This document shows, piece by piece, positions 9,037 through 32,400 of a DNA stretch of 37,030 nt. Source of the DNA: Chlorobiaceae bacterium (GTDB taxonomy: Bacteria; Bacteroidota; Chlorobiia; Chlorobiales; Chlorobiaceae); the NCBI GenBank assembly GCA_013335115.1, contig JAAXWQ010000016.1, forward strand, positions 1 to 37,030. Reading direction: 5' to 3'. The stretch's first letter is position 1. The number at the start of each line of letters is the position of its first letter. The notes below the pieces were generated by a model that ran no database searches, was not told the origin of the DNA, and worked only from the letters and a program-made list of their open reading frames with translations. A program made the position numbers and the translations under genes.

Positions 9037-9126
9037 TTGGGGACGTTCATGAAAACATTAACTTAGTGTTTTAAAGCTTTGAGGCTCAGGGTGTTTCCTC
9101 TTCCGACTGTTCCATTTTCTTTTCCA
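9034..9126 (+). repeat. Dispersed repeat copy 1 (long form)
   Basis: AACTTGGGGACGTTCATGAA then AACATTAACTTAGTG and TTTTAAAGC. Similarity to copy 2 (10189) extends through a CTCTTCCGACT and TCCATTTT tail for about 90 bases, giving a direct repeat about 1155 bp apart that frames the waaF-like gene. It lies in the divergent gap between the epimerase and waaF. The remainder of this gap (9127-9254) shows no gene. Confidence 0.85.
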
Positions 9127-9254
9127 ATGGCTTGACGTTCAAAGGTCAAGATCTGGGGAAATCTCTGTTCTGCCTCTTTTGGGCCACTTTTTCGGATCGC
9201 GCTAATCGATGGGCTGTTTTGGATTATGGCGTATCGCGTGGTTACATTGCTGGC

Positions 9255-10208
9255 ATGTCATCCTCACTTATCGTCATGCCGAACTGGATCGGCGACCTGC
9301 TCTTGGCGCTTTCGGTCGTCATGGAGCTTCCGACCGGGCGGTTGTCGTCCACGACGCTGCTTGTGCCTGAGCCGATGGCCGGGCTGGTGCGGATGCTGAG
9401 TCCTGCCAAGGTGCTGCCTTACGACCGGAAGGATCGCCTGAAGCGCAGTGATGCGCTTTGCGCTGTCCGCAGTCTCGGGTTCGGGTCCGTCTATCTCCTC
9501 CCTTATTCGTTTTCAACGGCATGGTTCGTATTCCGGGCGGGGATTCCCGTGCGGCGTGGGTTGTCGCTCGATTTTCGGCGCCTGCTGCTGACCGATCCCT
9601 TACCGGGCAGGTTGCGGGATCGCTCACGGCATATCCTGTATGAGTATTCGGAGATCCTCGGACAGCCGTATCGGGCGCCCGGGTCGTGGGGCGGGGCGTC
9701 GGCGACTCCCGATCCTGCGTATGCGGGGGCGGTGGTGTTCTGCCCGGGTGCCAAGTTCGGACCGGCCAAGCGGTGGCCCCATTTTGCCGATCTGGCGCGT
9801 CAGTTACCTGATGAAAGGATCGTAATCCTGGGGACGGTCGAGGATCGCCAGGCTGCGGCGGAGGTCGTGCGCGTCGCCGGGGATCGGGCGAGCGACCTGA
9901 CGGGGCGGACATCGTTGGCAGGCGCTGGCGCCATCATGGCTGGCGCTAGGGCGGTTGTTTCCAACGATTCAGGCCTGATGCATCTTGCGGGTTTTATCGG
10001 CGTGCCCGTCGTCGGGATTTTCGGCTCGACCAGCCCGGTGTGGACCGGTCCGTTGGGAGCCCGGACGGTGGTGCTCACCAGCAGGGAGGCATGTTCGCCC
10101 TGCTTCCGGCGTACTTGCCGTTACGGCCATTACCGTTGTCAGGCAGGAATCGGGGTCGATGCGGTCGTCGGTGCGCTTGCTTCGAGGGAACTTCGGGGAC
10201 GTTCCTGA
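9255..10208 (+). CDS. waaF: ADP-heptose:LPS heptosyltransferase II-like protein
   Basis: A 317-aa family 9 enzyme. SSSLIVMPNWIGDLLLALSVV at the N-terminus, FCPGAKFGPAKRWPHFADLA in the middle, VSNDSGLMHLAGFIGVPVVGIFGST then the tail CSPCFRRTCRYGHYRC match heptosyltransferase II (WaaF), which adds the second heptose of the LPS inner core. The frame is open from 9132, but the ATG at 9255 is the start that puts the conserved strand at the N-terminus. The stop TGA (10206-10208) and the last residues (RGRS) come from repeat copy 2, so the native C-terminus may have been trimmed or replaced. It is transcribed away from the main operon and lies between two direct repeat copies. Confidence 0.83.
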   Translation: MSSSLIVMPNWIGDLLLALSVVMELPTGRLSSTTLLVPEPMAGLVRMLSPAKVLPYDRKDRLKRSDALCAVRSLGFGSVYLLPYSFSTAWFVFRAGIPVRRGLSLDFRRLLLTDPLPGRLRDRSRHILYEYSEILGQPYRAPGSWGGASATPDPAYAGAVVFCPGAKFGPAKRWPHFADLARQLPDERIVILGTVEDRQAAAEVVRVAGDRASDLTGRTSLAGAGAIMAGARAVVSNDSGLMHLAGFIGVPVVGIFGSTSPVWTGPLGARTVVLTSREACSPCFRRTCRYGHYRCQAGIGVDAVVGALASRELRGRS

Positions 10209-10274
10209 AAACATTAACTTATTATTTTAAAGCAAAGAGGGTCTCCTCTTCCGACTTTTCCATTTTTTTCCAGG
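10189..10274 (+). repeat. Dispersed repeat copy 2 (long form), overlapping the waaF stop
   Basis: AACTTCGGGGACGTTCCTGA then AAACATTAACTTATT and TTTTAAAGC, with a TCTCCTCTTCCGACT and TCCATTTT tail shared with copy 1. The TGA inside the core ends waaF. It lies between the convergent ends of waaF and pgl. The rest of the gap to 10328 holds a short GGGCT/AGCCC hairpin (about 10308-10319) and no gene. Confidence 0.85.
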
Positions 10275-17638: not shown

Positions 17639-18109
17639 ATGTCGTTCACCGTCAACATTTCCGTATCCCGCCAGTTCGAATCCCCGGCGCTTCCCGACAA
17701 GGTGTTCGAACTCCTCGCTGATGTTCCCCGTTCGGCCGCACATTTCCCCGATGTCGAGAAACTCGAAGACCTCGGCGGTAACTCCTTCCGTTGGGTCATG
17801 GAGAAGATCGGCATCGGCGACTACACCCTGCAGCAGACCATCTACGCCTCCACTTACCGGAGCGACCCGGAGCAACTGCGGGTCGACTGGGTTCCGGTAG
17901 CGGGCGTCGGGAACGCCTCGGTCGAAGGTGGCTGGACGCTCTCGCCAGCCGCCGCCGGCACCAAAGTGCGGCTCGACACCAAAGGCCGCCTCGATGTCGA
18001 CTTTCCGGGCTTCCTGCAGTTCCTGCTCTCCCCGCTGATCGAGATGGCCTTTGCCCAAAAGATCGACCGCTACATCTCGAACATCGCCGAAACCCTCAGG
18101 AAGATGTGA
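17639..18109 (+). CDS. SRPBCC (START-like) superfamily protein
   Basis: A 156-aa single-domain protein. An early strand (FTVNISVSRQFESPALPDKVFELLADVPRSAAHFPDVEKLE), a run of beta strands, then a C-terminal amphipathic helix (FLLSPLIEMAFAQKIDRYISNIAETLRKM) give the polyketide cyclase/START helix-grip fold. These bind hydrophobic ligands; no catalytic residues can be assigned. No signal peptide. It starts at ATG 17639, 127 bp after the transpeptidase, so it probably has its own promoter. Confidence 0.7.
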   Translation: MSFTVNISVSRQFESPALPDKVFELLADVPRSAAHFPDVEKLEDLGGNSFRWVMEKIGIGDYTLQQTIYASTYRSDPEQLRVDWVPVAGVGNASVEGGWTLSPAAAGTKVRLDTKGRLDVDFPGFLQFLLSPLIEMAFAQKIDRYISNIAETLRKM

Positions 18110-18120
18110 CGGGGCTGTAG

Positions 18121-18145
18121 ATGTCGTGCCCCGGCGGGCCGACAT
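18121..18145 (+). terminator. GC-rich hairpin after the SRPBCC gene
   Basis: ATGTCG-T-GCCC-CGGC-GGGC-CGACAT is a ten-base-pair stem with one bulged T, 11 bp after the stop and followed by a weakly T-rich stretch (TTCTGTTTCC). It may terminate transcription. Its GCCCCGG core resembles the palindrome at 18373. Confidence 0.45.
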
Positions 18146-18167
18146 TTCTGTTTCCGATCTGTATCCC

Positions 18168-18351
18168 GGGTTTGCGGACTTGGTCGTGAATTCGGGCTTT
18201 GTGGTGAAGCGTACTTTGTGTCAGTAAGTTAATGTTTTCAGGAACGTCCCCAAGGTTACGGGTTTGCGGACTTATTTGCGTGTTCGTGCTTTGTGGTGAA
18301 GTGAGCTTTGTGTTGGTAAGTTAACGTTTTCAGGAACGTCCCCAAGGTTAT
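18168..18351 (-). repeat. 92-bp tandem duplication carrying dispersed repeat copies 3 and 4
   Basis: Two units, 18168-18259 and 18260-18351, share GGGTTTGCGGACTT, CTTTGTGGTGAAG and the reverse-oriented core TAAGTTAA(T/C)GTTTTCAGG continuing to AACGTCCCCAAGGTTA, all at a constant offset of 92. The cores are at 18225-18257 and 18317-18349. The arm beyond the core differs from that of copies 1 and 2, so this is a second subfamily. It lies between the convergent SRPBCC and metH genes. The whole 18110-18439 gap contains no gene. Confidence 0.9.
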
Positions 18352-18372
18352 TACTCCGGGGGTGTTGATTTC

Positions 18373-18426
18373 GGGCCCCGGAGGGGCCCAATATTGGTAG
18401 CGCGGGGTGACGCGAAGCGAATTCGC
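18373..18426. repeat. GC-rich palindrome and short inverted repeat near the metH 3' end
   Basis: GGGCCCC-GGA-GGGGCCC at 18373-18389 is a perfect 7-bp stem, followed by ATATTGGTAGCGCGGGG and the palindrome GCGAATTCGC (18417-18426). There is no T run on either side, so it is a repeat-type palindrome rather than a typical terminator. It could still stop or stabilise metH mRNA. Confidence 0.55.
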
Positions 18427-23184: not shown

Positions 23185-23198
23185 AGACTTCGGGATTG

Positions 23199-23239
23199 CT
23201 CAGGCTCCGATCAGGTCGAGCTTTGCCTTAAGCCATAAA
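23199..23239 (-). pseudogene. Decayed duplicate of the esterase gene 3' end
   Basis: On the minus strand this reads LWLKAKLDLIGA followed by TGA at 23202-23200. The live esterase ends SWLKGKIDLIES and TGA. At nucleotide level 33 of 40 bases match (23199-23238 against 23344-23383), with the stop codons in register. The 105-bp segment between the two contains dispersed repeat copy 5. No ribosome site or start goes with it. Confidence 0.8.
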
Positions 23240-23283
23240 AACTCGGGGACGTTCCTGAAAACATTAACTTAGTAAATTAAAGT
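23240..23283 (+). repeat. Dispersed repeat copy 5
   Basis: AACTCGGGGACGTTCCTGAA then AACATTAACTTAGTA and ATTAAAG. It lies between the convergent outer-membrane protein gene and the esterase, just after the duplicated esterase tail. The rest of the segment to 23344 has no other recognised feature. Confidence 0.88.
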
Positions 23284-23344
23284 ACCTGGCGTTACGTATC
23301 CCGAGCGGGTCGGGGATTGACAGGGTCTGTTTTTGCGGGCTTTC

Positions 23345-24016
23345 TCAGGATTCTATCAGGTCGATCTTTCCCTTGAGCCATGAGGCTGCCAGGTCGAGGG
23401 CGTCGCCATCGATTTCGTGGCCCATCGGGTACTCGCGGTAGGTGAGGTCCGCAACGTTCGCCTGCAGCCAGCGGTCGGCTTCGCGTCCCTTGTCGATCGG
23501 GAGGACTTCGTCGTACAGCCCGTGGACCACGAGGAATGGCAGCTCCTTGAGGACTGCCGGGTGCGCCGGGACTTGCGGCGGGCTGTCCGGAAGCTGGCCG
23601 CTCAGGGCGATGACGCCGTGCAGCAGTTCGGGTGAGCTGAATGCGGTCAGGTAGTTCATGACTGCCCCCTGGCTGAACCCCATCAGGAAGACCTTGCCGC
23701 CGGCAGGCCTTGCCGTCTCGATTTTTTCGCGGAGGAACTTCGCCAGGAGGTCGCGGGCCCTTACCGCTGCGTCACGATCGACGGTGATTCCTGCATCGGT
23801 GAAGGCGATCGGGAACCAGCCGTACGATTCGCAGCCCATCTCGATGGGGGCCTGGAGGCTCATGACGCGCAGGCGCCGGTCGAGCATCGGGGCGAGGCTG
23901 ATGAGGTCCTTCTCATTGCTTCCGTAGCCGTGCAGCATGATCAGTAGGGGCGCCCCTTCGGCGGATCCGGCGGAGTAGTCGAGGTGGTTGATGGTGTCCT
24001 GTTTGCGTTCCAGCAT
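23345..24016 (-). CDS. Alpha/beta hydrolase, carboxylesterase/phospholipase family
   Basis: A 223-aa single-domain hydrolase. Oxyanion region LLIMLHGYGSNEKDL, nucleophile elbow GFSQG with Ser115, acid Asp169 in VVHGLYDEVLP and His200 in YPMGHEI form a full triad of the abhydrolase_2 (carboxylesterase/acyl-protein thioesterase) type. The natural substrate cannot be told. It starts 12 bp after mnmA, so it is probably the last gene of the mgtE-mnmA-esterase unit. A mutated copy of its last dozen codons lies 145 bp downstream. Confidence 0.85.
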   Translation of the reverse strand: MLERKQDTINHLDYSAGSAEGAPLLIMLHGYGSNEKDLISLAPMLDRRLRVMSLQAPIEMGCESYGWFPIAFTDAGITVDRDAAVRARDLLAKFLREKIETARPAGGKVFLMGFSQGAVMNYLTAFSSPELLHGVIALSGQLPDSPPQVPAHPAVLKELPFLVVHGLYDEVLPIDKGREADRWLQANVADLTYREYPMGHEIDGDALDLAASWLKGKIDLIES

Positions 24017-30407: not shown

Positions 30408-30923
30408 ATGGGACCCGTTACGATTGAACGCCACCCGGGCAGGCTTCCTGAGGTGCTCCTTGGAGCCATCCTGATCGTCCTGACGACGACCGTGCCCTAC
30501 CTGAACCTGATCAACGCGCTCCTTTTTTCCGGCATCATTTTTTCCGGTGGAGCCGCTGCATGGTACTACATCGTTCGCCACCAGATTCCGCTGACCTACC
30601 GCCAGGCCTTCGTCATCGGCTCGCTGAGCGGGCTTGCCGGCGGGGTGCTTTCGGTGGGCGTGGAGTACTTCCTGCTCCAGGTGTTCGGCTATCGTCCCGG
30701 CCTGGAGAGCCTGCGCCTGCTGATCGACTGGGCGACCCGCATGGCTCCCGAAGAGGCTCCGACCTTCCGGCAGCTGCTTGCCATGGTGACGGCACCCGTG
30801 GAGATCACCGTGGCCGACCTGGTGGTGAGCATGCTACTTACCGGCGCAATCTACGCCCCCTTCGCCGGTGTCGGCGCCAGGCTCGCCGTGCTGATCCTGA
30901 AATGGCAGGCGAGGAAGAAATGA
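30408..30923 (+). CDS. Membrane protein, function unknown
   Basis: About 171 aa with four hydrophobic segments (LLGAILIVLTTTVPYLNLINALL; FSGIIFSGGAAAWYYIV; AFVIGSLSGLAGGVLSVGVEYFLL; and one near 135-160). The order of helix pairs recalls DUF4199-type proteins, but I do not assign it. A GTG at 30399 overlaps the dapB stop as GTGA and would add three residues. The last residues RKK and TGA run into the heptamer inverted repeat. Operon with dapB. Confidence 0.65.
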   Translation: MGPVTIERHPGRLPEVLLGAILIVLTTTVPYLNLINALLFSGIIFSGGAAAWYYIVRHQIPLTYRQAFVIGSLSGLAGGVLSVGVEYFLLQVFGYRPGLESLRLLIDWATRMAPEEAPTFRQLLAMVTAPVEITVADLVVSMLLTGAIYAPFAGVGARLAVLILKWQARKK

Positions 30924-30993
30924 TGAATGATGAATTATGAATTATGAATGATGAGGGATAAGAAAAATTCAGCACTCATCATTCATAATTCAT
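30921..30993. repeat. Heptamer-built inverted repeat between convergent genes
   Basis: ATGAATTATGAATGATGAG (30937-30955) pairs perfectly with 30975-30993 across a 19-base loop. The arms are built from 7-base units ATGAATT/ATGAATG; the left arm has about two more units than the right. The arm provides the TGA of the upstream gene and, on the other strand, the last codons and TGA of menE. It could act as a bidirectional terminator. Confidence 0.85.
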
Positions 30994-32400
30994 CACTTTC
31001 TTCCGGTACCACTCCCGGTCGATCTTGGCTGAGCCGGCAATAGTCACCCATTTGTCGACCCGCCTGAAGGCGACCGGTCGCTTCAGGCCGCCGAGGGCTG
31101 CCCCTGCCATCTTCGCAATCGCCGTGTCGTCCGGCCCGCCTTTTTTCGATACCTTCACCCAAGCCATCGGCCTCTCACCGTATTCCCGGTCCCGGATCGG
31201 CACGACGAGCGCTTCCTCGATGCCCGGCAGGGAGGCGAGTGCCTGCTCGATCTCTTCCGGGTGGATGTTCTCCCCTCCCGAGATGAACATGTTGTCGCGC
31301 CGTCCCAGCACGGTGAGCCGCCCCTCGTCCGACAGCGAGCCGATGTCGCCCGTGTGGAGCCAGCCGTCGCCGTCCCTCGCCGGGTCCAGGCCGTCGTGGC
31401 GCAGGTATCCCATGAACAGGCAGGGGCCCTTGACCAGGATCTCCCCGTCGGGGGCGATGGCCGCCTCGCGGTAGGGAAGGAGCGTGCCGCTGTCGTCCGA
31501 TACGGCATCGAGGGGATGCGGGGAGGTGGAGACTTGCGAGCCCATCTCGGTCGATCCGTAGGTCAGGTGGATGGGAAGGCCGGCCTCGACGGCCTCTTCG
31601 AGCAGGGCCCTGCCTGCCGCGCTGCCGCCGAGCAGGATTGCCTTCAGCCTCCGCAACGTGACTGCGCCGCCGGGTGCGCGAAGCATCCGGTAGAGCTGCG
31701 TTGGGACCAGCGAAAGGTGGGTCACGGGGAGTTGCGACAGTGATTCCTCAAGGGACGCGCCTGCCGGAGGGAGCGCAAGGGCGCCGCCGCCGAGCAGGCA
31801 CCTGAAGAGCATCGAGTAGCCGCCGACATGGTAGATCGGCAGCGACAGGAGCCAGCAGTCGCCGGGGGCGAACGGCAGGTTCGCCGCAGAGCCCATGGCG
31901 TTGTGCCAGTGGTTCGAAAGCGAGTGCATGGCCGCCTTGGGCCTGCCGGAGCTTGCCGAGGTATGGATGACCGAGGCCGGTCGGTCGGGATCGTCGGCAG
32001 CGGTGAACGTCGTCGATGCGGCCGCGTGCTTCACCTCATCGAGGGTTTCGAAGGTGATGGCCCGTTCCACGGTGAGGCCCGGGCAGGCGTCCGGATCGTA
32101 CACGGTCAGTTTCGGCCGAAGCCGGTCGAGCATCCCGCCGACATGGGCCGGGGTGAACCGGTGGTTCACCGGCGCGGCTACGGCGCCGATGCGCAGGAGC
32201 GCCATCATGAGCAGCAGTGCTTCCGGTCCGTTCGGGGCGGCGAGCGCTACGACGTCTCCCTGGCCGATGCCCAGCGAGGTGAGCGCCGCGGCGATCAGGG
32301 CGCTCTGGAGGTCGCCTTCGGCGAAGGAGAGCCTCCCTTCAGGCATGACGAGCGCCGGATGCCCGCCGAACCGTTCCGATGCCTCCCTTACCAGGTCCAT
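30979..32400 (-). CDS. menE: o-succinylbenzoate-CoA ligase
   Basis: 473-aa acyl-adenylate ligase. HTSASSGRPKAAMHS is the ATP loop (usually TSGSTGxPKG, so its glycine and threonine are replaced), LTYGSTEMGSQVS the A5 motif, GWLHTGDIGSLSDEGRLTVLGRRDNMFISGGENIHPEEIE the hinge and C-domain, and GSAKIDREWYR the catalytic Lys. It joins CoA to o-succinylbenzoate in menaquinone synthesis; identity rests also on menC and menB beside it. It overlaps menC by 13 bp. Its last residues VMNYE and the stop lie in the inverted repeat. Confidence 0.9.
   Translation of the reverse strand: MDLVREASERFGGHPALVMPEGRLSFAEGDLQSALIAAALTSLGIGQGDVVALAAPNGPEALLLMMALLRIGAVAAPVNHRFTPAHVGGMLDRLRPKLTVYDPDACPGLTVERAITFETLDEVKHAAASTTFTAADDPDRPASVIHTSASSGRPKAAMHSLSNHWHNAMGSAANLPFAPGDCWLLSLPIYHVGGYSMLFRCLLGGGALALPPAGASLEESLSQLPVTHLSLVPTQLYRMLRAPGGAVTLRRLKAILLGGSAAGRALLEEAVEAGLPIHLTYGSTEMGSQVSTSPHPLDAVSDDSGTLLPYREAAIAPDGEILVKGPCLFMGYLRHDGLDPARDGDGWLHTGDIGSLSDEGRLTVLGRRDNMFISGGENIHPEEIEQALASLPGIEEALVVPIRDREYGERPMAWVKVSKKGGPDDTAIAKMAGAALGGLKRPVAFRRVDKWVTIAGSAKIDREWYRKKVMNYE

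Follow-up and report, generated by a model that had tools for sequence, protein, structure and literature searches.

A second esterase gene end beside a solo terminal repeat of a RAYT-like element in a Chlorobiaceae genome

Results

Two esterase ends with a repeat between them

Two homologous 3′ ends of one esterase gene lie in the same orientation on either side of a dispersed repeat in the genome of a Chlorobiaceae bacterium. The second end is absent from the relatives, its edge falls at the outer terminus of the repeat, and the same joining point recurs elsewhere. We consider, with a probability of about one half, that the double end is left over from a tandem duplication of the BIME type, which took place locally and had the repeat's outer terminus as its anchor. 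The window, which is the whole stretch of 37,030 nucleotides analysed, is one complete contig (C26) of the 2.1-Mb genome, which falls in or near the genus Chlorobium, and its features are collected in Table 1.

Table 1. Positions in the window of the esterase locus, of the repeat copies discussed and of the tandem array
Feature	Position	Strand	Remarks
Convergent gene, 283 aa	22333..23184	+	outer-membrane-protein-like by eye
Distal esterase end	23191..23236	-	stop in register; upstream edge abuts the repeat's outer terminus; absent from all 20 relatives
Repeat copy 5, whole, with a conserved tail that ends near ..TTAAAG	23237..23288	+	
Repeat copy 5, outer terminus AAAAACTC	23237-23244	+	
Repeat copy 5, core GGGGACGTTCCTGAAAACATTAACTTA	23245-23271	+	
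Tail between repeat copy 5 and live end	23289..23335	+	not clearly common to other copies
Live esterase end	23336..23381	-	38/46 ungapped against distal end
Esterase, Abhydrolase_2, phospholipase/carboxylesterase type, intact 223 aa	23345..24016	-	PF02230 90.6 bits
Repeat copy (core)	9039..9065	+	
Repeat copy (core)	10195..10221	+	
Unit 1 of 92-bp tandem array (repeat + flank)	18259..18350	-	
Unit 2 of 92-bp tandem array	18167..18258	-	86% to unit 1, exact abutment

Positions 23199-23238 and 23344-23383 are identical at 33 of 40 sites, the stop codons of the two ends are in register (TCA on the plus strand at 23200-23202 and 23345-23347), and the 105-bp spacer between them holds the core of repeat copy 5; a recount confirmed all three of these points, which had been made in the earlier note. 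The best alignment without gaps is slightly longer, so that the duplicated segment comprises the last ~37 nt of the esterase, including the stop, and ~9 nt beyond. This match scored 30, whereas none of 300 shuffles scored above 16, and the binomial probability of at least 38 identities in 46 positions is ~6e-15 at a background identity of 27%. A pattern in which the differing positions were left open matched these two sites only in the window. In 437 kb of the genome (twenty 20-kb stretches and the window), 333 gene ends were predicted; apart from the esterase, no protein-coding gene among them had a second end, and the sole higher score came from a tRNA array.

The esterase is present in 21 of 21 genomes of the genus. 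All 20 relatives have a single esterase end, with best downstream match scores of 7-14 against 30 here, and no repeat of the family of copy 5 was seen in those stretches downstream of their esterases that were inspected. The convergent gene, for which neither Pfam nor NCBIfam gave a match, also adjoins the esterase in G016, G018, G006 and G013, and none of these has a repeat of this family between the two genes. The relatives named here are Chlorobiaceae MAGs; a search among named genomes for a closer relative returned only this same set, and a search of viral contigs gave no match. These comparisons bear out the earlier note's expectation that relatives lacking the repeat would have a single end, and double end and repeat thus occur together at the esterase locus.

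As DNA or RNA, the spacer folded no better than shuffled sequences, and a stable hairpin was rejected; a search for known RNA families also found no match. The tail between copy 5 and the live end had no significant match among the tails of other repeat copies, and a longer element reaching the live end directly was rejected on this ground. A mosaic esterase gene was also rejected, as no break was found in comparison with the relatives.

Which of the two ends is older? The earlier note had called the distal end decayed, a label that does not fit: over its 12 codons it has neither a frameshift nor an early stop, and it is nearer to the G016 ortholog, from which it differs at 5 of 36 positions, the live end differing at 8. 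The distal end is no more decayed than the live one, although so small a sample does not establish it as the original. The two ends differ from each other at 6 of the 36 positions and have bases in common that G016 lacks; they therefore look like siblings of one lineage. Because they are 17% apart while the repeat core of copy 5 is identical to the consensus, the age and order of the events are uncertain.

The repeat family and its transposase

The repeat core, GGGGACGTTCNTGAAAACATTAACTTA, has 20 copies scattered in the genome and none in a reversed control. Two inverted copies, GGGGACGTTC(C/A)TGAAAACATTAACTTACG, at C22:1254 (+) and 2328 (-), flank a 324-aa gene on contig C22 that resembles Y1_Tnp, or REP-associated tyrosine, transposases, with 43.4 bits to PF01797 (cut-off 23) and 59.7 bits to NCBIfam REP_Tyr_transpos, the latter under its cut-off of 80. 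With GGGG placed on the left, the copies share a conserved outer terminus of ~7-8 nt (AAACTTC/AAAACTC). The genome contains three more intact Y1 genes, each with GGGGACG..CGTCCCC-type ends of its own. In most relatives the family is absent or represented by few diverged copies, and several relatives carry related transposases. On these features, we identify the repeat as the terminal inverted repeat (TIR) of a transposase element that is RAYT-like (Y1/IS200-type) and closest to TIRtron/TIRYT. Copy 5 is one such terminal repeat of a RAYT-like (TIRYT) element, standing alone in the convergent space between the esterase and the outer-membrane-type gene.

Other repeats were also seen. A sister family (GGGGACGTTGATGACT..) forms perfect 66-bp palindromes, each of two inverted ends, at G000:C2:14833-14898 and G000:C25:250856-250921. 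An intergenic inverted repeat of the TGATGAATTATGAAT type lies at 30919-30995 of the window, and similar ATGATGAAT strings are found at other gene ends (L145, L138).

How does such a family avoid damaging genes? Several copies lie at or just past gene ends. In the window, the stop codon (TGA, 10206-10208) of a heptosyltransferase II-like gene (9132-10208, +) falls inside a repeat copy. Comparison with G010 revealed that at two loci the repeat has taken the place of the final codon(s) and the stop of a gene: at L002 (G000:C7:187668), the end seen in G010, ATC GGC GTG GAT TGA, was replaced and the frame now continues into the repeat, whose TGA terminates it (GGGGACGTTCCTGA), and at L020 (G000:C19:12704) a stop was formed at the repeat junction. 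At L012 the open frame likewise ends at the TGA of the repeat. The family thus looks to spare genes by sitting at their ends, some copies providing the stop codon themselves. GTAG REPs are also known to provide flanking genes with stop codons (PMC3733652).

Duplication of a gene end is not the general route. No gene-end duplication was found at the other 19 copies in the genome or at about twenty copies that belong to sister families and to relatives, and no target duplication at L002, L006 and L020, where comparison with the empty site of the nearest relative, G010, revealed small replacements. Direct repeats flanking insertions were thus lacking both at other copies and in the three filled/empty comparisons, and target duplication as a rule of insertion was rejected. 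Nor does the locus resemble an attachment site used by an integrase: the 105 bp between the esterase ends contain no gene. The proposal in the earlier note that the double end is linked to the repeat therefore stands for this locus, where all 20 relatives lack the second end, and its extension to a way in which the family inserts is essentially refuted by the 19 other copies. The duplication looks like a one-off local event.

A joining point at the outer edge of the repeat

Counted from GGGG placed on the left, the distal esterase end extends to -9, the first position beyond the 8-nt outer terminus. The two units of the 92-bp tandem array join exactly at -7/-8, the unit starting 7 nt outside GGGG, and a 146-bp array in the relative G012 (G012:C12) starts at -9; the spacing of the double esterase end is 145 bp. 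Short duplications at -4 to -11 were also seen at L012, L118 and L129. Overall, a local repeat with a boundary between -4 and -11 accompanied 6 of ~40 copies and 7 of 300 random windows (p ~0.002), a statistic that mixes true tandem duplications with repeat copies lying side by side, which are alike from the terminus onward in any event. Taken by itself, the esterase is not significant in this count, and it is the sole instance where non-repeat sequence was duplicated. Tandem units of repeat and flank are clear at 18167-18350 and at G012:C12, and the esterase locus displays the gene-end part only.

The surroundings of the 92-bp array have features of their own. A 29-bp GC-rich direct match (18109-18137 and 18358-18386, 24/29) flanks it, and may be either a second duplicated edge or two terminator-like palindromes. 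Downstream of orthologs of window 17639-18109, in the same intergenic region as the array, L071 (G016) and L074 (G013) carry GGGGACGTT-type repeats of different families, as if this spot had been hit repeatedly.

Discussion

How might the second esterase end have arisen? Under the tandem duplication that we favour, the duplicated unit would run from the outer terminus of the repeat (8 nt outside GGGG) through the tail and into the esterase segment, of which it would include the last 46 nt. The proximal unit would be continuous with the coding sequence, and the esterase would have stayed intact for this reason; the distal unit would have kept the esterase-end part only, or only that part would have been copied. 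The process may have begun with a nick by the transposase at the terminus, followed by re-primed synthesis, an order of events that is itself conjectural. Counting against a tandem unit is the single repeat copy between the two ends; the full second unit must therefore have been lost or never made. A more specific proposal, that the transposase cuts ~8 nt outside GGGG, that the freed end re-primes nearby and that host gene ends are copied as a by-product, strikes us as unlikely. If it is true, cutting and re-priming would have left their traces in the double esterase end and in the arrays that share its joining point, and these traces would mark the cut site in vivo.

The order of live end, element and distal end would also be expected if the element had inserted near the esterase terminator with a target duplication of ~46 bp, the gene end being copied to both sides in one event, which was the first option of the earlier note. 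The distal end abuts the outer terminus of the element and continues into the neighbouring gene in the manner expected of native sequence, the live end is followed by the tail and the element, and relatives without the repeat lack the distal end. However, large target duplications are not known from enzymes of the Y1/IS200 (IS200/IS605) type (PMC2817692). Neither a gene-end nor any other target duplication accompanies the other copies in the genome, including the three with an empty site in G010, and the ~47 bp between the live end and the conserved repeat match no other copy. We regard this explanation as possible, though doubtful.

Plain replication slippage or template switching at hairpins, formed by the repeat and a terminator, would give the transposase no role. 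Short tandem duplications are common at hairpin and terminator sites, terminator-type inverted repeats lie downstream of the esterase in G016 and G018, and the apparent left arm of such a terminator (AAGCCCGC) persists after the live end. However, this process accounts neither for an edge at the outer terminus nor for a joining point shared by two arrays, no comparable event occurred at the 332 other gene ends, and the spacer folds no better than shuffled sequence. We consider it quite improbable.

Alternatively, one gene end might be foreign, carried in or picked up by the element, or recombination with an incoming esterase allele might have left the old end in place. The smaller distance of the distal end from the G016 esterase would agree with such an origin. 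Against it, the two ends have the appearance of siblings, the esterase is free of a mosaic break while its last 56 nt vary fast among all relatives, and no esterase-like end is found at any other repeat copy; we hold it to be very improbable. Chance similarity, which has nothing in its favour beyond the short length of the match, can practically be dismissed in view of an ungapped match with stops in register that shuffles never reached.

The reading of the locus as an insertion that repairs a gene end is thus corrected, and the repeat is tied to its transposase. The locus also shows that repeats of this kind can leave extra copies of host gene ends in their wake. We consider the shared joining point near -8 the most useful lead, since a common join ~8 nt outside GGGG predicts the cut position of the little-studied TIR-type Y1 transposases.

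Comparison with known systems

The repeat belongs to a known kind, and the duplication of a gene end has precedents. Two kinds of repeat were considered and rejected. GTAG REPs (REPtrons) do not fit: their mark is a GTAG (or GTGG) foot adjoining a hairpin, and the copies here start with GGGGACG and lack a GTAG foot. CGTC REPs (PMC3733652) carry CGTC at one end, followed by a stem of 8-9 bp, and have no link to a transposase gene; here CGTC occurs inside CGTCCCC, no 8-9 bp stem follows, and the repeat flanks a transposase gene.

The closest system is the TIRtron/TIRYT (Di Nocera et al. 2013, PMC3733652). A RAYT-like Y1 gene is there flanked by terminal inverted repeats that are long and bear no relation to GTAG REPs, and the TIRs begin with GGGG and form a moderately abundant family with dimers and clusters. 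We found the corresponding parts here: a RAYT-type Y1 (HUH) gene encoded by the element, long non-GTAG TIRs, and a dispersed TIR family (20 copies). The motif given there, for some TIRs only, is GGGGWSAS, with which GGGGACGT agrees at 6 of 8 positions; the sections consulted describe no gene-end duplication.

For the duplication itself, the nearest parallel is provided by four BIMEs that include the 3′ terminal part of the neighbouring rayt gene, for which nicking by the transposase and re-primed synthesis were proposed (Nunvar et al. 2010, PMC2817692). There, as here, the 3′ end of a gene and the stretch up to the repeat were duplicated together with the repeat in a local array; in contrast, the gene was rayt itself and the repeats were gammaproteobacterial GTAG REPs, whereas the present case involves an unrelated host gene and one repeat. 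Ordered REPIN clusters are likewise typically tandem repeats that include flanking sequence (Bertels and Rainey 2011, PMC3116915), and resemble our case in this tandem duplication of repeat and flank, although they consist of GTAG-type hairpin doublets, whereas most copies of the present family are single TIRs.
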